NCBI GenBank assembly: GCA_001414485.1
Contig: LLEY01000198.1
Coordinates: 39,486-103,485, forward strand
Length of the DNA: 64,000 nucleotides
Source: Calycina herbarum
Lineage: Eukaryota > Ascomycota > Leotiomycetes > Helotiales > Pezizellaceae
Reading direction: 5' to 3'
Shown: positions 7,191-61,274 of the stretch, one piece after another
Numbering within the stretch: the stretch's first letter is position 1
How the letters are laid out: every line of letters starts with the position of its first letter
Made by a program: the position numbers and the translations under genes
Notes under the pieces: model-generated
What the model was told of the DNA's origin: nothing
What the model saw: only the letters and a program-made list of their open reading frames with translations
The model's database searches: none

Positions 7191-8061
7191 CTAGCCTGAA
7201 AACCAGAAAACCAGAAAACCGTTCTCCCTTTCTACAAAAACTGAAGTCATCTGAGGCTTGTGTACATGGAGAGCAAGGACTTAGCCCAATTCTCCTCAGT
7301 CTATAGTCGTATGTACCAGCAATTAGGTTATCCATGTATCAGTTAGAATTTGGAAGGGATGCCAGAATTTGGGCGCAAAGGCCCAAGTAACCGTACACAA
7401 CTAGTGAGAAATCTTAAAAGATCAAGCTTAATTGACTCAGATGACACACGGGGTAATGAAATTCAATTATATTAAGCCGTTGGAATCATGGATTGGCTGT
7501 CTATTGTTTTACTTGACGCAAGTGTCAAGAATATCGATTAAAGTGGTTAAAATAGTGATGATATTGTATATATTCTAGATCAAGACTCCTAAGCGCGGGG
7601 TAAACACAGCCCATTTGGATGACTAATCACCCACTCCCTGACAGCAAGATGCCCAGAGCGGCGGTAGAGACTCTTTCGGGATTTGGTAAGTGTTCAGAAA
7701 AATAGACTTATTTAACAACAATCCTTTGGAGATTACTATAGACTTTGCGATCTTTTTAGCAGTAGAGCATTTGAAGCTTTGGAGAGAGAAGGGATGTAAA
7801 TAGAAGCATTGTTACTTGATTGGCTCTTTTGCTTTCTGTGATATCGGTCCACGTGACTGGCCGATAATCACAGGGTCTGCTCCATATATGCGCTATTAGT
7901 CAAAATGATACCGTTCAGTAGTCATTTTAGGTGAACTTTTACGTTATTCCTGCTCTGGCGCAACGGTTACCTTGTATATTACGCAGACTAATAGTTGGTA
8001 ATATAACATTTCACCGTTCTCCAGTCCACGTGATGCTGCGCCAACGGATTTATTCCCCGCT
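7191..8061. other. Non-coding stretch; original upstream region of the HET gene
   Basis: No gene is seen. Because the LINE inserted at 8074/16708, this sequence originally lay directly upstream of the HET-domain gene now starting at 16746, so its promoter probably lies here. E-box-like CACGTG words occur near 7851 and 8027. Confidence 0.4.
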
Positions 8062-8074
8062 TCCATTCCCGTTC
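8062..8074. repeat. Target-site duplication of the LINE, left copy
   Basis: TCCATTCCCGTTC, identical to 16708-16720. The first T may instead belong to the AATC tail of the LINE, in which case the duplication is 12 bp. Confidence 0.85.
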
Positions 8075-8202
8075 GAAAAACTTCACAAACAGCGAGAACA
8101 AATTTTTTGAAATTAAGCAACGAAAACCACATCTAGCAGCCCTCCTTTTGGTTAGTTGAGAAGCCTAAGCCTGTGTACATTGCCTAGTATAACATAGGCA
8201 TC

Positions 8203-9540
8203 ATGGTAACACCGTGGCCTCAAGCGGTAGCATGGCCCAACAACATCCGCGAGCACGCTACACACCTTAGCGACTACCTTAGGAAAGCACTTGCCTATAT
8301 CGAGTCTAATAGAGACCAGCCGGTGCCAAAGCCCTTAATCAGAACCATGATCGCGTCTATAAGCGTCTTTATTACTAAATTCTAAAGTACCCTAGACGTT
8401 AGAACTATTATATAAGCTATTACAACTATCTAAAATAACCTCGAAACTACGGTAGAAACGGTATAATCTATAGCAACAAGGGTTTAATAAAACATAGTCA
8501 TATACTAACAAGCTGTTATACTTAGCTAGGAGACTAACTAAGCTGTAAAAGAAGCTACTGAATCGAGAAGAACAACCACCGTACTTATATAAGAGACGAA
8601 CGACATAGTAAAAGCAACAAATAATATTATAAAGGCTATCTAGACTATACTATCCTCTAAGGCTTTATATACGTCGGTATTAAGTAGTAATACCGTCCTA
8701 CTAAATAAGCTAATTATAATCTCTATATAAATATCTTTATTTATCTAAGTATAATATAAGATTATTATAAAGATTATAGACCTATTTACTATTAAAAGTC
8801 TTTATATAAAAAACCCTAGAAACCTATAAAGCTATATTAATCGAGCGATTAAATAGAGTAAAAACTAATATATTAAATAGATATATATTATATTAGCTAA
8901 CTAATTAAAGAGTAGAGACCTTAGTATTAAAATATTAAACAAAAACGAAGTAGATATACTAAAGCAATTCACGAACGACTAGATTAATCGAATTAGAAGA
9001 GTTATAAACATATAACTACCTATATATAAGGTTCTTATATATAGGATTAGAATACGTATACTAGATATAGAGAAGTTCGATAAGATTAAAGCAGAGCTAC
9101 TATATAATAACCGACTATTTATTCTAAACGTAGATATTAAATATATTAGATAGCTATTTAGAGCTATATATACGAAGATAGCTTTAACTATTATAGTTAA
9201 GTTTACTAGCCTAGAAGACGTGAATAAGATTATTAATAAAGGCCTTATTTAGTAAAGCGAGGTGTTTTAATATAAGAGATATAATAGATAATACTAACTA
9301 AAGCAATACTATAAATACCAAAGATATAGCTATATCGGAACCTAGTATAAAGCGAACATAGTATATAGCTATTATATAGAGGCGTACGACTTGAAAGATT
9401 ACTTAACAAAGGTTGATAAGATAGTGGCTAGGAAATACGCTATATATAAAGGAGTATATAAAGCGTGGAATAACTGATACCTAGTTAGGAAAGTTAAACT
9501 AGCGAAGGTAAAGGCGGTATATAATACTTAATAACTATAT
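8203..9540 (+). pseudogene. LINE ORF1 (gag-like, zinc knuckle), RIP-inactivated
   Basis: The first 60 codons (MVTPWPQAVAWPNN...) are intact to the stop at 8383-8385. After that the frame is riddled with TAA/TAG. Around 9310-9530 the frame reads Y-K-Y-Q-R-Y-S-Y-I-G-T, where the tyrosines stand where Cys/His of a CCHC knuckle would be (TGT/CAT changed to TAT by RIP). It is followed by an R-K-Y-A-I-Y-K-G pattern typical of a second knuckle. Such proteins bind the element RNA. The frame is certainly non-functional. Confidence 0.7.
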
Positions 9541-12500
9541 TATTTTATTCTAATTATAAGATAAAAACAGATAAACGAAAGCTTTACTTTTAGTATAGTA
9601 ATAGTAGAGCTAAACAGAAGTTAGAGAGGACGACTAAGCTCTACTACCGCTAGTATAATACCTATAGTATATTTTCCTACCTCTGGTAGATAGAGTACTA
9701 GAAGCAAGTCACCGACGAAGAGTAGAGCACTAAAAAGAATTAATATAGAGAGTATACTAGACAGTATATAAGACGAAAATAAGGATATCGTTATAGAAGA
9801 GAGTAGTTAGAGATTAAGAAGACTATACGTACTCTTAAGACAAGCACTAGAATCGATTATAATAAACTTAATACTTAGCTCCTAGTTTAATATAGAGGAG
9901 TTATAAGTTATAACAAAAGCAGCCTAAAAATACTATAGTATAACGTTATAAAATTAAAGAATATAGTAATAGCCTTACTATTATAAGACCTAAAGATTTA
10001 AGAATACGATATCCTAGCTCTCTAAGAGCTATAGAGGAACTCTTTTTCTCCGACTACTTATAACTTAATCCTATATATCTTTTAACTATACTTCTCTAGA
10101 GATAGTAGAGAAGCGCTAGCAAGGGTATACTTCTTTATTAATAAGAAGATTAGCTTATATAAATAGATATTTATAGAATATACCCGAGATCTAATTATAC
10201 TAGAAATTACTATAATAAATAAATCTATAAACAAAACAACAAAGATTATAATATATAATATATATAATCTCTTAAGAAGAATAGAACATAGGACGAGCTA
10301 CCTACTACAACTTCAAGTAGTACTATTAATATACTAAGGCGAAGAACAGGTTATTCTAGGAGATTTTAACCTATATTACGAACTCTAGAGTAGACTAGTA
10401 ATATAAGAAAGAGACCTAGAATCTAACGATCTAATTAATATTATCAACGAATTTTAGCTTAGTAGTATCCTACTAGTAAACATAGTTACTTATAATAATA
10501 AAAACATATAAACTTATATTAACCTCTATTATAGTATATAAGATCTCGTAGACAAAGTTATTACTTATATAATAGATAAGAGGATAGATTATAACTTCGA
10601 CTATCTTTTAATTATAACTTATCTAGACCTTAGAATAATAAACCGACTATAGAGAGAGATACGAGACTAGTCTAACACCGACGAGAAAGAGCTCTAGAAA
10701 AGACTATTAAAAGAGCTACTTATATAACGTTCCTCTAAAACCTAGACCGTGTTAGACAGATATATAGATAAAGTAATAACTGCTATATAATCAGCTATTA
10801 ATTACGCTACACCTCTGAAAAAGTGGTCCCTAAGAGTAAGAGCTAGTTAGACGACAGAATATAAAGAGATATAAGTATAAGTTAGAAGGTTAAAACGTTA
10901 AAACAGCCGATTATATACGGAGGAGAGCTAGGAGGCCTACTAAATAGCTTATAACTAAAAGGGAAGAGTAATACGTAGATCTCTATATTAAGGATTTAGA
11001 GAGTAGATAGAAAGTGCTATAGAAAGCCTAGAGAGTATATAGAAACTAGTAAAGTAGGCTAGAAATCGAAGCAAGATAAGAGCAGTAGTAATAACTCTAA
11101 TACTTAAAGATCCTATAACATATATTAAGTATAAAGAAGTATAAGAAAAAGTATAACTTCTTAAGACAACCTTCTTCCTAGCCCTACTAGAACCTGATTT
11201 ATAGGATATAAACGAGACTATATATTAAGATTATATTCTATTTCTAGATATTATAGAGAAAGAAGTACTTTAGATAATTACCGCGATGCCTCTAATAAAA
11301 GCTATAGGACTAGATAGTATAATAAACCGAATCCTTTATATTACTGCTACCTAAATAGCACTACATCTTATAAGAATATTTAACTAGAGTCTTTGCCTAG
11401 AATACTATCTAATATATTTCCGGCAGTCTATAACGATTGTCCTCTATAAGCCTAGTAAAGACGACTATACTATATCTAAGGTATATCGACTAATTATATT
11501 AATAAATACGATAGGTAAGATCATAGACGCTATTATTATAAAGAGAATCAGTTATATAATAGAGGTATACTAACTACTTCTAAGTACTTATATAGGAGGA
11601 TAGAAGAGGAGATTAACAGAGCACGCTGTCTATACTATTATCGAAAAGATTTATATAGCTTAGAATTCACCTAAGCTATAGATAGTAAGCCTTCTCCTAC
11701 TCGACGTCTTAGAGGCTTTTAACAACGTTTTATATACGAGGCTGCTTTATAACCTACGTAAGCGTAGAATAGACGAGAGAACAGTTAGATAGATAGCTAG
11801 CTTCTTAATAGACTAGAACATAACTATAACCTTTAACGTATTTAAATTAGACATCTACTAAATAATAACAGGTATCTCTTAAGAATTACCACTCTCGCTA
11901 ATACTATACCTATACTATAATACCGATCTAATCAATATCTATAATTAAGAAAACAATACTTTTATAATAAGATATATCGATAATATCGTAATCTTATAGT
12001 AGAGAAGCTTAATAGAAGAGATATATAAAAGCCTAGAAAGGATAATAGAATAGACTATAATATAGATAAAGAGATATATATTAGTATTCGCTCTAAGTAA
12101 ATTCTAACTTACTTACTATATAAGAAAGCAGTAAGTACTAAACATAGACATAGACTATAAAATATAAGTAGACTAGATAGAAGTCTACTTTTAACTAAGT
12201 TATAGATACCTAGGTATTATACTTAATATAGTATTAAACTAGAAATAATATATCTAAGATATTAGAATAAAAGTATCGAATTCTATTAGTACGCTAGCTA
12301 GTCTAGCCAGCTCTATATAGGGAATAGGAATTACCGAACTTAGAAGGATCTATTAGACAGTAGTTATCTTATAAATAATATATAGCTATTCTATATAGTT
12401 AGTCGTATAAGAATATAGAGAAGGTTATACTATAGAAATAATTAATTCTCTTAAAAGACTTTAAACAAAAGCGGCTAGAACTATAGAAGAGGCGTATAAA

Positions 12501-13185
12501 GCAACATTAGGTCTAGCCCTTGATATAGAGCTTTATCTCCTCTCTATAGAATAGTAGATCTAGAAGACTAGTACTAAGATAATTAGAAGAATCCTCGCTA
12601 TAGATAAGATACTAGCCTTAGAAGGGTTCCGTTCTAATAATTTAAATTAAGAGAGCTAGGTACTATATATAAGTCTACTAAGACATATTTATAGACGTTT
12701 ATACCTATGTCGAGGTATATTAATTATAGAGTAAGAGACAATCCTACTATATATTATACTACTATAGTAGTAAGGACTAAGTATATCTATTATATTAGAC
12801 ATAGAAATAGTAAAGATATAATATAAGAACTTCTTAAAGTATCTCTTAAATAGTATCTTTATCTATACTAATAGAAGTAGTATAGATAATTATATAGAGG
12901 CTACTATAATATCGCCTCTAACTAGATATATAAGGATAGCATATATAGGAAATAGTAAAACGTTAATAGTATACGCTATAGAACTTCAAGGAATTAAGCT
13001 AGCTCTATAGATCGTAGTCTAGGACTAAGAAAGTAGGAATAAAAGAAATAAAGTAGTTATCTTTATAAATAATTAAGTAGCTATTAGAACATTTTAACAC
13101 CTAGCTAGTAGATCTGATATATATATAGCTATAGAGACAGTACCTCTAATAGATAAGCTATAAAAGGACTATAAAACCTAGGTTA

Positions 13186-13466
13186 TATAACGGTACGAAA
13201 CGGATACTACTACAAAAGAGGTATATAGAAGTGCGTTCGATAGAATAACATATCCGAATACTAGGCTCTGATACGAAGGAAAAGACTAAATTAGTCTTTC
13301 CTTAAGAGAGAGTAAGGGCATCTATATATAAGAGGGCCAGATAATAACAAAAGTCTGTACCGATCCGGCTCTGACAATTCTAAAACCATCTGTGCCGTAC
13401 TATACTCGGCACGTATTCTTAGCTATTCCGATAGCTTAGCAATTCTATTAATAGCTGGCTATTACA
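13186..13466 (-). repeat. 3' LTR of nested retrotransposon
   Basis: 281 bp, aligned without gaps to 15521-15801. The differences seen by eye (about 18) are all C/T or G/A transitions and occur in both directions, as RIP would give when acting separately on each copy. Confidence 0.88.
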
Positions 13467-13479
13467 TTCCCCTCCCTTG

Positions 13480-15146
13480 AAAAAGACTCGTCCTCGAGTC
13501 TTCGTATTATCGGTGCGGTATCGGTAGGCAGTGTCTATAGGCGGTAGTATTAGTAGTAGAAGGATTGTCGTATAGAATACGGTTTATTAAGCGAGGTGTT
13601 TAGCGAAAGGTAGGATACGAGTCGTAGCTGGCCTTGTTTGTAGATGTTGCCTATATTAGGTGTTTTCTACTAAAAGCAAAGCATTTGCTAAAAGAGTGTA
13701 TAGTCTGACCCCTCGATTGTTCTATATATCGGAGGGGATTTAGATAGGAGTCGGAGGCGGAAGAGTCGGAATTTAGAAGTCGATATCGTAGAAGACAGTA
13801 ATAACTTAGCTAAGAGGTTACTTATTAGCGTACTTCTTCGATTCGTAACTGATTCGTATCTGATTTAAATTAGACTTCTAGAATCTAGCTAGAAGGTAAA
13901 AGAAAGTAAGGACTCCTTACTAAAGTAGCGAGTCGGAGGTGAGGTATCGGCTAGTTAAATGTTATTACTGATAATTGTCTAATACCTTGTTTTCCCACCG
14001 ATTCGGGGTACTCTACGAGGACTTGGTTTTATCTTCCCTTTAAACGGTAGAAAAGGATTCGTGTTTAGGTAGTAGGAGGTTTAGTATTATACTAGATAAG
14101 GATTAAAAGGTAGTCTTTTTAACTGAAGTGGTTATACTAACTAGCTTAGTCGTATTAGCTATGTATAACTTAGCGTTTCAGCGTCTTTCCTTATCTAGGG
14201 CTAGAAGATCTGCTACTATTTTAACGAAGTTATAGTTCTAACGTCTCTTAAGTATAGCAGCTGAGTTTCGTAGCTATAGTATAATCTTTTCCTATATATA
14301 GAAGAACCGTTCTAACTCTAGTATCTCTCCGAGTATAGCTATACTCGAAAATCGACCTCTGAAGTTAGTAAACGTTTCTTTACCTTTAGCGTCATCTATC
14401 TATAAAGCCTAGAAGGCGTTCTATATATCCTCTATCTCGTATCCGGTTAAGAAATATAAATCTAAAAGTTTAATTATATTTTAATAATCGTAGAAAGTAA
14501 TATAAATCGACTTGGACTCGTATCTAGGCTTAAGGTAGTTCCTGGCGTAGCCTGTAGTTGTTTCTTAGATAAGAGCCTTTCGAGTCGGTGCGGTATTATA
14601 ATAATCGGCGTTTACTAGGAGTCTATCGCGTACCGATATCTTCTATTGTTAGTAGGTAGGTGAGGTACTGTTATTTAAGGGTTTAATCCTTTCTATGATC
14701 TTGCTTTTAGCGGTTCAGAGTAGGAGCGGATTCGGGGTGCCTTCTAAGACTAGGAGGGTGGTCTGCCGTCGAGGGAAGGTATCAGAGGTAGGATCCCTTA
14801 AGCAAAAAGGGTCTCGCGTAGTACTTGGAGGCGAAAGAGGCTCGGGATCGATTCTAGGTAGATTCGTAGAGGCTAGTTAGAGTTCGCTTATTATCCTTTC
14901 TAACTAGGCGAATCGATCGTTGTTATCTTAAAGTTTTTCTTCTAAGCCTTATACTACACCTTATATCTCATCTATATTAGAAAAGTCTCAGTTGTCTTTA
15001 GGGTTTCGAATAGGTTACTTTCCTTTCTAGGACCTTTTGTTTTTAGGCGTGCGAGTGCGGTTCGTAGACCTTTCGAAGGGGGGTCTACTAGCTTCCTTAG
15101 TAGGTTGCTCAACGCTCTTAAGAAGCGGAGCATTAGAATTCGACAT
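13480..15146 (-). pseudogene. Retrotransposon gag-like frame with RIP stops
   Basis: The minus-strand start ATG at 15146 opens MSNSNAPLLKSVEQPTKEAS and an Arg/Lys-rich segment, then meets TAG. The frame can be followed with stops through a typical gag capsid pattern (LLDLYFLTGYEI..., ETFTNFRGRFSSIA, ELERFFYI) between about 14550 and 14200. Capsid proteins of this kind package element RNA. No zinc knuckle was clearly seen. It is non-functional because of the many stops. Confidence 0.6.
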
Positions 15147-15520
15147 GTCGTATATCGATTCGAAAAAGGGAGGGGTTAAGAGGTAGATTCAGGAGCCTTC
15201 CGAGTAACTATATATCGTCGGCTGTTCGTATCTTATGTAGTAATCCTTATATAGAGAGGGTTATTAGAAGTCTCAGGAGTACTTAGCGTAGTCTACTCCT
15301 ATTAACGTAGGAATCGCCTACGATTTTACTAGCTAACTGTTTAAACACTAAACCCCGGTGTTACTAGCCGTCTAGGTAGTCTCTGATTACCTAGCTATTT
15401 AAGGTTGTCGATATACTAATCTAAATCTAGGCTAAATCGAATTCGAAGCAAGTACGCCGGCGCGCTCGAGTAAGATATTATAACAGGCCGTCCCCGGCGG
15501 AGTTAAATTTAGTCTTTTAA

Positions 15521-15801
15521 TATAACAGTATAAAACGGATACTACTATAAAAGAGGTATATAGAAGTGCGTTCGATAGAATAACATATCCGAATACTAGG
15601 CTCTGATACGAAGGAAAAGACTAAATTAGTCTTTTCTTAAGAGAGAGTAAGGGCATCTATATATAAGAGGGCCGGATAATAACAAAAGTCCGTACCGATC
15701 TAGCTCTGACAATTCCGAAACCATCTGTGCTGTACTATACTCGGCACGTATTCTTAGCTGTTCCGATAGCTCGGCAATTCTATTAATAGCTAGCTATTAT
15801 A
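15521..15801 (-). repeat. 5' LTR of nested retrotransposon
   Basis: Partner of 13186-13466. Its outer end reads TATTATA instead of TATTACA, a C-to-T change relative to the other copy. It is followed by the target duplication GGTTA. Confidence 0.88.
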
Positions 15802-16590
15802 GGTTAAGATAAGATAAATACTAGTCTATATAAGTATCTAAGGAAATAAAGTAGTAGATAAGGCAGCTAAGATTATAGTAAAATTACAACTAGAGAGGAA
15901 TTAGAAAAACCTAAACGTCGCTTAACCTAAGACTTACTACTTATAAGCAACTCTAAAGACGTGGATTATAAAGTAGATAAGAGCCGAGTAAGTATATAAG
16001 TAGGATCTAGAACTAAGAGAGAGAACTATATATAAATATACTTAGAAGCTAATATATAAGATCCTACGTCTCTACTAGAGACTAAAGAAGTAGCAAAGCT
16101 CTCTACTAATCTAGATACGTATAGAAAAGATCGGATTAAAAGATTTCCTCTAGAAGAGAAATATACCTAGGTATAATAATCTAGGATATAAATATAGAGA
16201 GGGACGATAAACTATAGGATATATTATATTAAGATGTCGAAAATTCAAAGACCTATAACTAAGAGAATTTAGAGGAAGAAGGTAGTTAGACTTAAAGATA
16301 ATCTTAAACGAGTTAAAAACAGCTATAAAGGTAATAAGATTTATAGAACAGACGCAACTCCTTAGGCAATTTAGGAGTTGTAGTACAGTGTAGAAAGACG
16401 AAGCGGAACGCTAGGGGGAGACTAAAGATATAAGGATATAAGATAGCTAGTAGAAGCGGTAGCTAAGGAACCTGATATACTCTAAAAAGATCAAGCAAAG
16501 CACTTCTTTTATACTATATATATAGTTGTAGATAGAAGCCAGACCGTCTAGTAGAGGAGGCTGCTGGTCACTATATAGTGATAAAGTGAA

Positions 16591-51654: not shown

Positions 51655-53883
51655 TCAGCCAAGAACCTCATTCGGCAAATAAAGCGGCATAGAATCCTCC
51701 CACTTGCTATCCGTCAAAATAGTCTTATTCGCCCCATCAGCATTCATAATGAAAATCTGACCATAAGGCTGGAAAGTATCGTCATAAAGAGCAGCCTCAG
51801 TACGGAATCCATACATTCCACTCGAGTACAAGATTTGGCCGTCGGCAGCCCAGACAGCATGTGCGTCATTGGCACCGCTTGAAGTAACAACAGTGAGATC
51901 GCTTCCATCTGGTCGGATAGTGTAAACATCGTAGTTGGTGGCATTTGCCCGACGAGTGAAGACTATTTCCTTTCCGTCTGGAGAGAAACCGGGGAGGTTG
52001 TCGAGGCCGGTCGTGAGTGTGGTTACACTTTTGTCAGTGAGGTTCATGATTCTAAGTCCAAAGTCCTCGGATCCGACGGCTCCCCAGAGTCTGTAGACGA
52101 GAGATTGACCATCGTGGGAGTAACTGGGGAACCCAGTATTTACAGACCCATCGGTGAGTTGTTCGTAATCTAATCCATTGAGTCTGACGCGGTATAACCA
52201 TGCAGTGGCAACAGCTCGCATTTGGAACCAAGATCCCAACCCGAATGCAAGCCACTCTCCATCTGGAGACCAGGCGGGCATGAATGCACCAGCCAATCCC
52301 TGGGAAGCGTATGTAGCATCGATTTGGCCTGTGGTGAAAGTGTTGAATGTGGCAACTTGGTCTGAGCCATCTGGATTCATCGTGATGAGGGAGGAGTTGA
52401 CGGCGTGTTCGGTGATTGCCACTTTGTTGGTGGATGAGAGCGCGGGGAAAATGTCAGTGTAGCGATAGTCCCATTCGGAATCCCAGCTGTAGGGTTCTTC
52501 CTCCTGTGCGCGAGCGGTGAAAGCTTGCTTTTCGTAAACTACCAATGTTCCATCTGGTGACCACGCGGGAGAACGGATGTCATTAGAAATAACAGACGTG
52601 GTGTTTGAGCTGTAGGTAAGCCCAGCGACTGTGGCTGGAGCCTTTACAAGGTAACCGATCTCAGTCTGGGTCACGTATTGTGGTGCCAACTTGAGTCCAA
52701 CAGCAGAACTTTCCTCAACACGATCAAGTCCAGTAGCGACATCGACAGAAACGATGGTTGAGTTGGTGGTTTGAGAATCTTCAGGTCGGTGTGCGTTCCA
52801 TGTCTCTTCACGAGTGATCTCGTAGTAGACAAGAGGAGTAAGAAACATGGGCTTTGCTCTGAGTACAACCCCTCCATCTATTACTTAAGAAACTTGACAT
52901 AATCTTAACTATTGTCTGAAGGTATCTAGGAGAATGGAGAAATCAGTTTTCCTATTCTTCTAAACCTTCTCAGAGAATAAATCTCGTTTTCCTAGACCCT
53001 TTCGCACAATTTCTGCGACAGCGGGTGTACTCGGAGCAAAGCCCATGTTTCTTACCGTCTGGGGACCATTTTGGTGAACCAAGAGAGTAGCCTGCCTTGG
53101 TTGCGACTTGTCGGAAATCGGTTCCATTGGGTCTAATGATGTAGATAGATAGTTCTTGAGTATGCTCCCAACCAGTTCCGTTGCCATGGCCAGTCCAGGT
53201 GGTGTTTCGGTCAGAGGCGAAAGCAATCCATTCTCCGTTAGGTGACCAACTCTAAAAGATGAAAAGTCAATATTTGATGGCTTCAAATTTCCCGGGTTGA
53301 AATTTGAATTTGTGTATCAACTTACGGGTGAGAAATAACTGTCATGGCTCCAAGAAACACCTTTTACAGCATCAGTGTTGGTGAGGTTGCGAGCGCTGCT
53401 AGTACCAGCTTCAAGATCCATCACCCAAATGTTTGCAACATATCCATTCGCAGTGGAGATATAAGCGCATTGAGTTCCGTCAGGAGAGACCACAAGTCCA
53501 CCCTCAAAGGACGAAGTTGCCAATATTTGTTCGATACCAGAGCCATCCAATCGACATCTGAACAAATCCGAGTTACCGGCTCCGTTGCGCTCGCTGGTAA
53601 AGGTGATCCATTCTCCGTCTGGTGAGAAAGCTGCATGGTAGTCGAAGGTAGACCGGTTGAAAAACTGTCGTTCATCGCTGCCATCGGTATTTGCCACGTA
53701 TAAAGTCGAGGTTGAGGGGCCAATTCGGTTCATGAGCACTACATCTTTCTTGCCGGGGATGCGAACTGAATGTGGTGATTGAGCAGCGACATCTCTTTTG
53801 TCTACATGCTTCATGTATGGACATTCGGCAGCAATGGTGAGACCCGTAGCGAGTCCCAACAGGAAAACGATTGAGAGACGCAT
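51655..53883 (-). CDS. Secreted TolB-like (PD40) beta-propeller protein, 651 residues, with a transposon-derived intron
   Basis: Exons 53883-53326, 53251-53056 and 52856-51655. The start MRLSIVFLLGLATGLTIAAE is a signal peptide; the first upstream frame extension lacks one. At least eight WD40-like PD40 blades are visible: FSPDGEWITFTSERNG, VSPDGTQCAYIS, WSPNGEWIAFASDRN, WSPDG, WSPDGTLVVYEK, WSPDGEWLAFG, YSHDGQSLVYR and FSPDGKEIVFTRR. There are many N-glycosylation-type Asn sites. Such propellers bind partners or sugars outside the cell; no catalytic triad or peptidase domain follows, so an enzyme role is not supported. The second intron (53055-52857) is almost entirely a foldback transposon. 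Its donor G|GTAAGA is made by the target TA plus the element end, and the acceptor CAGAG|CA restores the frame. Removing the element in thought leaves PDG-TPLVYYEITREE in frame. Confidence 0.88.
52841..53052 (+). mobile_element. Foldback element copy 1, acting as an intron
   Basis: A 212-bp element with terminal inverted repeats AGAAACATGGGCTTTGCTC followed by C/T-GAGTACA. It is flanked by TA on both sides (52839-52840, 53053-53054). Internal TCTAGGAGAA and TTCTCCTAGA words form further inverted pairs, so most of the element folds back. It lies in the coding sequence of the propeller gene. The same family is at 60740-60978. There is no coding capacity. TA duplication and size fit a Tc1/mariner-type MITE. 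Confidence 0.88.
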
Positions 53884-54973: not shown

Positions 54974-57900
54974 ATGCCCATATGCATCAACTGCGGCAAT
55001 TGCCAACACCGCTGCGTATGCGATTTCTACATCCTCGACACACTTTGGGTCCCACCCCCAGTAATAATCACTGAGACCTACCATGAGCATTACTCCTCCG
55101 TCGGCGGTTCCCATATCCACCATGAATCTCACTCTCACTCTGGACATGACCATGGAAGCTATTCAGAACAATACGGATCAAGTTCCAACCAACTTCAAGG
55201 TGTTGAAGTCCCTCAAAGCTATGCCACTGCCGAAGAAGCTTTTGAGGCGGAAAGGCGGAAGGGACGACGGAATAATCGACAATATGAGAATGATTTGAGG
55301 GAACAGGAGAAGATTGCGGATGCTGATAGGAAACGACAGGCTGAAGAGGCTCAACGTCGGTAAGTTTATATCCTCTCCAAAAATATTGGATCCGGGATTG
55401 TGAAAGGATTTGTCGCTAACTTTGCTTAGAGCTGCTACTGCGGACGCTCAAATGCAAGCCGCCTTCGAGCAAAACAAGAAACGCATAGCCGAACAGGGAC
55501 GACAAGCTGATGAACAATTACGCGCAGCCACCGAAGCCGAGAACCTGCGCTTACAAAAGGAAGCCGACGCAGTTGACGCCGAGATCCGGAACCAAGAACA
55601 ATATATTGAGCAACAGAGACGAGAAATGGAGAGCTTAGCGGAAAAAGCACGAACTGAAAAGCAGAAAAGAGAGTTAGAAGAGTTGAGGGTCAAAGGGGAA
55701 GCCAGGCTAGCTGAGCAGCGATTGGAAATGGAAGCCGAACGAGAGCGAGCTAGGCTGGAAGCTAGGAAAGAGGCTATGGCTGCTGAGAGACTAGCGAGGG
55801 ATGAGGAGTTGAGAGAGGAAAAAAGGAATGCTGAGTTGCGTGCTGAAGAGGAGAAATATGCACATGAAAGACGTAAGATGGAAGCGGAAAAAGAAAGAAG
55901 AGAGGAAATGCTTCGAGAAGAGCAGCGAAATGCTGATCTCGAAGCCGAAATGCAAAAGCATGAGCTAGAAAAGCGACGAATGGAAGAAGAAAGAAAGCTC
56001 ACACGTGACCGCAAACGAGATGAGGAGGCATTTGCCAGGGAAGAGAAAATGAGAGAGGAAGATAGAAGACACAAGGCAAGACTCGAGGAACAACGACTTG
56101 TTAGGGAGCGTCAACGAGAAGAGGAATCTCTTTCAAGAGAGGAAGCACTGAGACTGGAAAAACAACGCCATCAAGACAGATTAGATGCTCAGAAGCGAGA
56201 AATCGAGGAAGAGAAGCGTCGCATGGCTGAGCAAAGACTTGCTGCTGAGAGAGATCGTGAAGAGGCAAGACGTAAGGAACTTGAATGGCAAGAGGAGCAA
56301 AGATATAAAGCACAACTCGAATCAGAAAGACAAAAGATCGAGGAAGAGAAACGTCGAGCGGAACAACAAAGACTTGCCGCGGAACGTACACGGGAGAACG
56401 AGAAAAGAAGAGCACTTGAACGCCAAGAAGAGCAGCGACGAAGAGATGAAATGGATGTAGAGCAACGGAGATATGAAGAGCGGAAGCGTCGTCGTGAAGA
56501 AGAGCATCGTTTAGCGATGGAAAATTTACGTACAGATGCAAGTAACAAGCAAATCGAGTGGCAAGCTGAGGATACTCGAAAGAAAGAAGCCGAAGCTGAG
56601 AAGCACAAATACGAGGAGCAGGTCCGTCGCTTTGAAGCCGAGCAACGTGCCCAAGCCGAGCGAAAGAGGCAAGCAGATGAAAACACAAGGAAAGCACAAG
56701 AAGCGATGCGAGCCCAGGTAAGTCATCCTTCTTCCCCAATTCTAAAGGTTTAAGAGCATGCACGATGATCCTAGAATTCTTGGAGCGAGTTTTTCAATTA
56801 TTCTAGGCTCTCTCACTCAATTACTCCCGGAGGTCAAAACAAGCATCATGATGTTTCCCCAGAGAAACTAACTCCAGAACAGGAACAAGCAAGCCGAGCC
56901 GAAAATCAGCGAAAACAAATTGAAGACTCCAAACACGACAGAGAAATGGAAGATCTCCGTAGAAAGACCCAAGAACTCGAGGAAGCACGAAAACACCATG
57001 CCGAAGAGTTTACGAAAGCCCTAAAGCGTGAAGAATACTGGAAGCAAGACCAAGAAAATACAGCTCGGGCACTCAACCAGAAGCGACTTGACGATGAGAA
57101 AAGACGATTGGATGAACAGCGAAAGAGAGTCGAGCAGGGACGGAACAATGATCTTGAAGCAAGAAAACAGAGAGAGGAGAAAGCGCATAGAAAGGCGATC
57201 GAATCAAGTGCCAAGGAGGTCGAGAGAATGAGAGAGGAAACTAGATCTCTTGGTCTTGGTTTGCAGAAACGTTCAGATTCTCAGCAACTGACTGGTAAGG
57301 CCGCTCAGATGTCTGCTATGCGTGAGAAGTTGGCGAATTTGAAACTCAAAGCTATTGGTGCTTCATCGTCAAACACACCCACTACTTCTTCGTACCCCAG
57401 TTCTTCCACAGTAGCCGCTCTACCTGCAACTCCTCCGATGAGACAGTTGCGAGGGTAAGTCAAATTACCGGAGCCTATTGCACCCAGACAATTAGCTAAC
57501 TTTGTTGAATAGGTCAAGCTCAACAACTTCCCCACCATCAACTTCTCTAGTTCTAGAAAAGGAACGCAAATTGGCCGAACTTAAAGAAAAGCTTGAACAG
57601 AGCAAGGCGAGACTCGCAACAACAACTAAAGCATTGCCTTCATCCTCGAGCGGAAGCTCAGCAAGTGGAGCAAGACGAGTTCAAGATCTGGAGAGGATAG
57701 CCCCAACCAAATCGACAGCTTTGGTCTCAGAGCAAGAACGCAGATTAAACGAGCTCAAGGAAAAGCAAGCGGCACTAAAGGCCAGACTCAACACCGCAGC
57801 CTCAGCTCAAAGCTCCTCAGCACTGCCATCCAGTGTTGCGAAATCCTCGTACACTAGAGAAGCCAAACCATTACCAAGCCCACCAGCACAGCGAGCGATC

Positions 57901-59025: not shown

Positions 59026-61274
59026 CTACAACTTCGCACTAATCTCATCGCTATCCTCCATAATGGCCTTCTCAGCATCAACCTTCTCAGCGTGCGAAGC
59101 GATGACATCTCCCTTCTCGTCAACCGGAATGTTTGGTGTTCGCTTCGATTGTTTGATGCTCTGTCTGACAACAGCGAAAATGGAATCGTTCTCCTTGAAC
59201 ATCGAGTCGATCTGTTCAAGACTTTGACCCATAGTTTCAGGGTAGAAGAAGAAAACGGATAGTGGGATGCAGAGTGAGATGACGCAGTAGAGGACGTAGT
59301 ATTTCCATCCGATTGAATTGATGGCTGTCGGGGTGACCATTGCGACGACGAAGTTCCAGAGCCAGTGGTTGGCTGTTGAGACGGAGGACATTGCTACTCG
59401 GAGACTGAGAGGTGCAATCTCGGCGCAGTAAAGGAAGTTAGCTCCAAGGAATCCGATTGGGACGAAGAAGTTGAACTATGAGTTTGTTAACAATTATAGA
59501 GGTGCTAGGGAGTTTGGAAATGCATACCATGAATACGAAGAATACAGAGGCGATTGAAGCAGCTTTGTTGTCTTCCATTGAGGTAGAGATTGCCAATGCT
59601 AACATGCAGCATCCCATTCCGATACCGCTGAACATGAAAAGAGCTCGGCGACCGAATCTGTCGATAGTGAAGAAAGCAACGAAGCATGACAAAAACTTCC
59701 AGGTGAGAGTTCCACCAGCAAGGATTCTGGAAGTTTGACTGTCAAGTCCGAGACCTTCCTGGAAAATGATTGGCGCGTAAACAGCTGTGAATTGTTAGTA
59801 ACAGAGAATCGTGTTTCCGAAATGATGTGACTTACAGATCAAGTTACTTCCAGACATCTGTTGGTAGAACTGGAGCAGAATACAGAGAGTAAATCTGTAG
59901 AAAAGCTTATCTGGACCACTCTTGAAGCAATCTTTTAATCCGACGGGACTGGCGTTCATCTCCTCAATGTTTGCCTCAATGCTGTTGATAGCCAAATTGA
60001 CAACAACATTATCCTCCTCAACATCGTTCAAAATAGCCAAATTTCGTCTAGCTTCCGCGGTTCTTCCAACACGAATCAGCCATCGAGGTGATTCTGGCAT
60101 GGTAAAGATGCTGGCCATGAGCAACAAAGAGACGATTGTTGGCAGTGCGAGTGGTAATCTCCAGGAGATGGATCCGGTCTTGATTTGGAAGAATCCGAGG
60201 TTAATCCATGACTCTAGAACGTATCCTAGAGAGATAAAAAGACCATCAAGTACAACGTGTTTACCACGATGTTTTGCGTCTGAACATTCTGCCTGCCAGA
60301 CTGGAACTGTTGCGGAAAGAATACCGACACCGACTCCAATGATGACCCGACCGACGATGAATTGAGGTAAGCTGAAAGAGGTGCAGCAGATTGCCTCTCC
60401 GATGAAGGTTAAAAGGGCACCACCACTAAAAGTAATTGTTAGGTTTTCTCGTCGAACCGAAGAGCTAATGAGGACAAACCGTTCCTCCAGCTACTAAGAA
60501 TTGAAAGGAAAACTTACAAAATCAATTTCCTACGTCCGAAGATATCGCCAGTGAAAATACATGAAAGAGCTCCTACTAGTGCACCAAGAACGAAGGTGGC
60601 AACAGTGGTGCCTTGCACAAGTGCGTGTTGTGTTTTCACGGCCCCGGTGACGTCTAAAATCCGGAAATTAGTAATTGCCTCAATTGATCAAATTTCAACA
60701 AGTTCAGGATATTTGAAGAAAGATAGAAAATTGGATGTAAGAAACATAGGCTTTGCTCCGAGTACACCCGCTTTCGCGAATATTGTGCGAAAGGGTCTAG
60801 GAGAACGAGATTCATTATCTGAGAAGGTTTAGAAGAATGGGGAAACTGATTTCTCCATTCTCCTAGATGCTTTCGCACAATGGTTGAGACTGTGTCAAGT
60901 TTCTAGAGTAATGGATGGAGGGGGTGTACTCATAGTAATAGATGGAGGGGGTGTACTCAGAGCAAAGCTCGGGATTCTTACTTACGGACGGTATCAATCG
61001 CTGGGAAAGTCTCTGTCCAATCCTGCACACTAAGTAGGCCCCCGATTCCCGCTTGATTATAGCCTAGAGGACGATCTCGGAGTCAGTATTGCCCTTTCTA
61101 GAAATATGTTTGAAGAAATGAGGACGGAATAGGGGTGTCTGAGGAGGAAATGATGTCTCAATCCTCCCGAAAGAGGAAACAATAACTCGGAGAATACCCA
61201 CCAAAAAGAACGAAAGCTGGAGCGACAACCAGACCAAGCTGGGCGAGGGAAGAGGATTTTCCACGTAAAACCAT
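59026..61274 (-). CDS. MFS sugar transporter (527 residues)
   Basis: Six exons: 61274-61202, 61063-60986, 60653-60518, 60425-59836, 59784-59528, 59475-59026, phases consistent throughout. Family marks of the sugar porter group are FGRRKLI, GRVIIGVGVGI, VPVWQAECS, the PESPRWL motif (FTMPESPRWLIRVGR), QQMSGSN, IDRFGRRALF and PETMGQSLEQID, with twelve hydrophobic segments. It would take up a hexose, pentose or disaccharide at the plasma membrane by proton symport; substrate cannot be read from the sequence. The cytosolic tail (VIASHAEKVDAEKAIMED) has lysines that could be ubiquitinated. The second intron (60985-60654) carries a foldback transposon starting seven bases inside the donor site. Confidence 0.92.
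60740..60978 (-). mobile_element. Foldback element copy 2, within an intron of the sugar transporter
   Basis: A 239-bp member of the same family as 52841-53052, in opposite orientation in the window. It is flanked by TA (60738-60739, 60979-60980). The ends are less similar to each other (AGAATCCCGAGCTTTGCTC against AGAAACATAGGCTTTGCTC). The 27-bp excess over copy 1 is a tandem duplication of ATGGAGGGGGTGTACTCA-containing sequence near 60915-60960. The element starts immediately after the GTAAGTA of the host intron donor. Confidence 0.87.

Follow-up and report, generated by a model that had tools for sequence, protein, structure and literature searches.

MITEs of fungi that duplicate TA upon insertion are Tc1/mariner-like and non-autonomous. 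The family described here, from Calycina herbarum, resembles them in its size of about 212 bp, its TIRs, the TA duplication and its many dispersed copies, of which those examined are mostly outside coding sequence, but differs in an added preference for G and C on either side of the TA (GTAC); our search found it no parent transposase.

Introners are the other systems to which the locus can be compared. In the accessible part of Gozashti et al. (2022, PMC9860276), the insertion of introners with TIRs and TSDs gives a 5' splice site derived partly from the target, as would be the case here. The same text reports gene enrichment of introners for 161 of 175 genomes, whereas the present family is not gene-enriched, and describes fungal introners without TSDs and TIRs, the ascomycetes being an outlier. 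Fungal Introner-Like Elements, as presented in the available portion of PMC4457414, are multiplying invasive introns; they share with our elements the nature of short repeated elements in a filamentous ascomycete, but the copies examined here are mostly outside coding frames, with a single exon hit. Among the open-access papers listed for fungi on introners and MITEs, on the gain of introns and on introns derived from transposons, we recognised, as far as titles and the beginnings of abstracts tell, no TA-type MITE copy of a fungus that was presented as a new intron.

Splicing of the copy described below would mean that a TIR/TSD element gave rise to an intron in one step in an ascomycete; introners of this group reportedly lack such signatures in the part of PMC9860276 available.

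A MITE in the exon of a propeller gene

The window, i.e., the whole stretch of 64,000 nucleotides analysed, carries a PD40/TolB-like propeller gene with the following features, given in the order of the gene.

53883-51655, minus strand: PD40/TolB-like propeller gene, ATG at 53883
53326-53883, minus strand: exon 1
53252-53325, minus strand: intron 1, ordinary, 74 nt, phase 0, GTAAGT...TTTTAG, as read from the sequence and frame
53056-53251, minus strand: exon 2, 196 nt, ending ...WSPD plus one base
53053-53054: right TA target-site duplication, next to C at 53055
53020-53055, minus strand: right inverted arm, starting on the gene strand with GTAAGA, a potential 5' splice site at 53055
52841-53052, minus strand: MITE body of 212 bp, flanked by the two TAs
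52838-52873, plus strand: left inverted arm
52839-52840: left TA target-site duplication, next to G at 52838
51655-52837, minus strand: remainder of the interrupted exon, restarting TPLVYYEI

The unit at 52841-53052 is a non-autonomous TIR/TA transposon (MITE) interrupting a PD40 exon. Its identical 19-base ends, AGAAACATGGGCTTTGCTC, lie at 52841-52859 (plus strand) and 53034-53052 (minus strand) with no mismatch, and belong to inverted arms of 36 nt each that are 92% complementary. When up to three mismatches are allowed, AGAAACATGGGCTTTGCTC matches three times in the window, compared with 0.02 times on average in shuffled sequence, the third match being part of a second family copy. The TA target duplication is inferred from the flanking TAs and the frame. 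The first-pass annotation had placed a TIR/TA element inside this coding sequence and had noted that deleting it with one TA restores the frame; both points hold, as the deduced protein then has 646 residues plus the terminal stop, with no internal stop.

The gene is single-copy, as the protein search of the genome returned one match. The best named match of the deduced protein was that of Hyaloscypha bicolor (68%), followed by Cadophora (65%), Phialocephala (64%) and Glarea (61%). Proteins of Dothideomycetes and Sordariomycetes score about as high as the latter three (e.g., Melanomma 63%, Eutypa 63%), and bacterial matches reach up to about 60%. The nearest relative, P0001, is 90% identical; it has no counterpart of the element and is continuous across the insertion point. 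Comparison with orthologues lacking the intron had been named as a check, and all 11 aligned relatives (P0001 and ten others, from 120 listed matches) carry no extra residues there, as judged on protein, a level at which annotated fungal proteins alone cannot rule out an intron at the insertion point. The P0001 protein looks like an ungapped call, judging from its sequence. A search of viral contigs for the DNA encoding P0001 gave no match, as expected for a fungal gene. The residue adjoining the insertion is P in the focal protein and invariably R in the 11 others. Amino-acid changes assigned to the focal and P0001 lineages numbered 11 each, with 19 ambiguous, so there is no sign of relaxed selection, albeit a young insertion would show none either.

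Family, target site and relatives

The 68.8-Mb, 379-contig assembly was searched with three DNA queries, which gave 89 loci at 66 non-redundant places, 49 of them with both ends recognisable. One query yielded 53 matches, and the two others added further copies. The terminus pattern (up to three mismatches) occurs at 226 sites genome-wide, against none for the reversed pattern. Since there are 226 termini and more places were listed than fetched, the true copy number exceeds 66. The family thus sampled consists of many dispersed non-coding copies with TIRs, and TA is present on both sides in most of the 49 complete ones. The focal copy clusters with L074 (91.7%) and L072 (90.4%). The second copy in the window is as follows.

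60737-60981, plus strand: second family copy, 245 bp, outside any scored coding frame

It includes about 27 extra bases that repeat a subterminal stretch.

Among the 49 complete copies, the left flank reads G in 41, T in 42 and A in 41, and the right flank A in 44 and C in 43. The target is probably GTAC with the TA duplicated, to judge from these flanks. Alternatively, the G and C could be part of the element ends; removal of the element with one TA leaves a continuous protein frame at the focal site, which fits the GTAC target. Target and element end together produce the GTAAGA donor incidentally, in whichever orientation the element inserts at GTAC.

The genome contains at least 150 DDE_1 and at least 115 DDE_3 matches, with scoring limited to the best candidates; the match nearest to any of the 66 copies or of the 100 listed of the 226 termini is 6.6 kb away. 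Hence, of the Tc1/mariner-type signature proposed earlier, the TA duplication stood and is the one ground on which the family may be given that label, while no transposase match accompanied the copies and termini compared. In-frame stops in the first 40 of the DDE_1 matches are TAG in 124 cases, TAA in 48 and TGA in 4. Such a bias, rich in TAG and TAA and poor in TGA as RIP would leave it, suggests that RIP has acted in this genome.

Copies of the family and coding sequence

For each complete copy, we rebuilt the empty site and asked whether a coding-scored frame runs across it. The coding model was weak, being trained on ORFs of at least 200 codons from the same loci and the window; the focal gene was among them, which favours detection of the focal copy. 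The test covers the 49 complete ones of the 66 fetched copies, the other 17 being incomplete. In the strict version (sensitivity 132/339), the focal copy was the only one of the 49 to fall in a coding frame; for control GTAC sites flanking the 66 loci the count was 29 of 316. The loose version (sensitivity 143/195) placed two of the 49 in coding frames, compared with 59 of the 316 flank sites (Fisher, 0.007) and 24 of 160 GTAC sites in the window (0.048, with 0.11 and 0.17 at two higher thresholds). When the codon score was ignored and the frame had only to be open for 30 codons on each side, the condition held at 15 of the 49 copies, compared with 161 of the 316 control sites. The examined copies look depleted, not enriched, in coding sequence, with a significance that varies with control and threshold. 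If anything, such a depletion would match, by analogy, MITEs that are purged from exons.

The second copy detected by the loose test, L035:1499-1714, lies in a gene that we take, from its motifs, to encode a GMC oxidoreductase; no Pfam family matched the joined frame. Read by eye, its empty site contains an ordinary intron of ~54 nt, GTGAGT...TTAAC...AAAG, the donor of which (GTGAGTAC) overlaps with the GTAC target. This copy seems to have entered a pre-existing intron at the donor end rather than to have created one. The family is a useful negative: on either strand the MITE ends resemble a 5' splice site, yet the examined copies avoid coding sequence. This suggests that a donor by itself is not enough for an intron to be tolerated.

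Splice signals of the focal copy

The first-pass annotation had also described a donor G/GTAAGA and a frame-restoring acceptor that adds about five residues (a slash marks the splice point). Both are present and the arithmetic is right: the donor is at 53055 on the gene strand, and splicing from there to 52857 would give WSPD-AKPMFL-TPLVYYEI and lengthen the protein by five residues net. Six of the 24 AGs listed keep the frame, so that one in-frame acceptor is unsurprising by itself. These, and the out-of-frame acceptor closest to the CTGAT motif, are as follows.

52926-52927, minus strand: TAG/A acceptor, 15 nt past CTGAT, out of frame
52884: AAG/T acceptor, in frame, in the element
52878-52879, minus strand: TAG/A acceptor, in frame, with CTTAA just 6 nt upstream; the TAG needs a RIP-type change at 52879
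52872: GAG/G acceptor, in frame, in the element
52857-52858, minus strand: GAG/C acceptor, in frame, the one proposed at first
52806 and 52779: AAG/A acceptors, in frame, already within the exon

As a yardstick we used Fusarium, not C. herbarum itself. In the accessible part of PMC5677156, acceptors of Fusarium core genes are YAG/R in 94.31%, RAG/R in 3.51% and RAG/Y in 2.18%, and branch sites are CTRAY in 91%, with CTTAC in the rarer CTHAH group. Introns of the present genome were also tried in this role and set aside, since the 10 candidates, six with a unique acceptor, were too few.

By this yardstick, GAG/C at 52857 is of a rare class, and CAG/A at 52859, two bases ahead of it, is out of frame. 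The sole branch-like site of the CTRAY type in the element is CTGAT at 52946; the other branch-like motifs are CTTAA, which fits the CTHAH pattern of PMC5677156 as given there, and CTTAC. The AGs found 15-37 nt past CTGAT, namely TAG/A (52926), CAG/A (52916), TAG/T (52909) and AAG/A (52904), are all out of frame, and splicing at them would bring stops at amino acids 256, 254, 284 and 258, respectively. An unspliced reading stops after 279 amino acids, at 52972. The RNA of the MITE folds into one long hairpin (-93.7 kcal/mol, z about -10), with the donor within an uninterrupted 23-bp stem. From these signals, clean removal of the element would be less likely than plain disruption.

RIP-like changes and age

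Compared with its two sisters, the focal copy shows 13 differences; at two it agrees with the rest of the subfamily, which leaves 11. These comprise six C>T at CpA, one G>A at TpG, one other C>T and three others, i.e., seven of 11 at CpA/TpG, albeit at some of the 11 the base occurs also in up to three of the other seven subfamily copies. Counted more strictly, the private changes came to six, three of them at CpA, and several other copies have few or no RIP-type changes. With moderate confidence, given such small numbers, the focal copy appears to carry RIP-like C-to-T changes. Those at 52879 and 52886, which may predate or postdate the insertion, created the TAG acceptor and the nearby CTTAA. 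Dating by divergence was tried (FastTree terminal branch 0.053) and abandoned, as RIP-biased changes make the age unreliable; we infer that the insertion is recent.

Consequences for the propeller gene

We consider it probable that the MITE in the exon, which carries RIP-like changes, is a young insertion that leaves the gene disrupted or weakened. An element favouring GTAC and duplicating TA landed in an exon of the single-copy gene; transcripts left unspliced, or spliced at the best-looking acceptors, would run into an early stop, so that the full-length protein would most likely be lost or reduced in the strain sequenced. Chance sites may still allow in-frame splicing of a small share of transcripts. 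Against disruption, the gene is otherwise intact and has changed no faster than in the P0001 lineage, as for a working gene, six acceptors are in frame, and the stem around the donor does not exclude splicing; the insertion may be too young to show gene decay.

The claim that the element has become an intron is not supported, and the splice signals that look best do not keep the frame. We regard it as unlikely, although deserving attention, that the focal copy works as a new intron and is spliced out in frame from 53055 to 52857, 52872 or 52878, which would add about 5-12 residues to a propeller loop. The good donor, the element acceptors in frame at 52884, 52878, 52872 and 52857 and the otherwise intact, unaccelerated gene would suit such an intron, and residue-adding introners are known, according to the part of PMC9860276 at hand. 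On the other hand, all in-frame acceptors but the TAG at 52878 belong to the RAG class, and the branch-like CTTAA is just 6 nt from that TAG; at 52859, shortly before the GAG/C acceptor, stands a CAG that would be used out of frame; and no other copy in the set of 49 was seen to behave as its own intron, in tests of limited sensitivity. More doubtful still is a working intron gained in one step: its donor would consist of the GTAC target and the element end, and the in-frame TAG acceptor and its branch-like site would exist solely through RIP (52879 and 52886).

It is very improbable that the gene is split and its downstream part expressed as a 397-aa ORF (MFLTPLVYY...) from an ATG in the element end: the ORF at 51655-52848 does begin at an ATG inside the TIR, but the product would lack the first blades as well as an N-terminus that by eye is signal-like, and the ATG looks fortuitous. 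Least credible of all is the introner-like behaviour once suggested, by which the family would make introns across many genes; the TIRs, the TA duplication, a GTAAGA end in either orientation and more than 60 copies would fit it, but only two of the 49 complete copies lie in coding frames, fewer in proportion than control sites, and the L035 copy is apparently within an older intron. Disruption by a single insertion stays our preferred account of the locus.

Elsewhere in the window, the stretch at 8001-16000 is AT-rich (GC 0.30 and 0.35, against 0.42-0.50 in the rest) and is possibly a RIP-degraded repeat block. A long ORF at 55410-56753 on the plus strand encodes a highly charged product, coiled-coil-like by eye.
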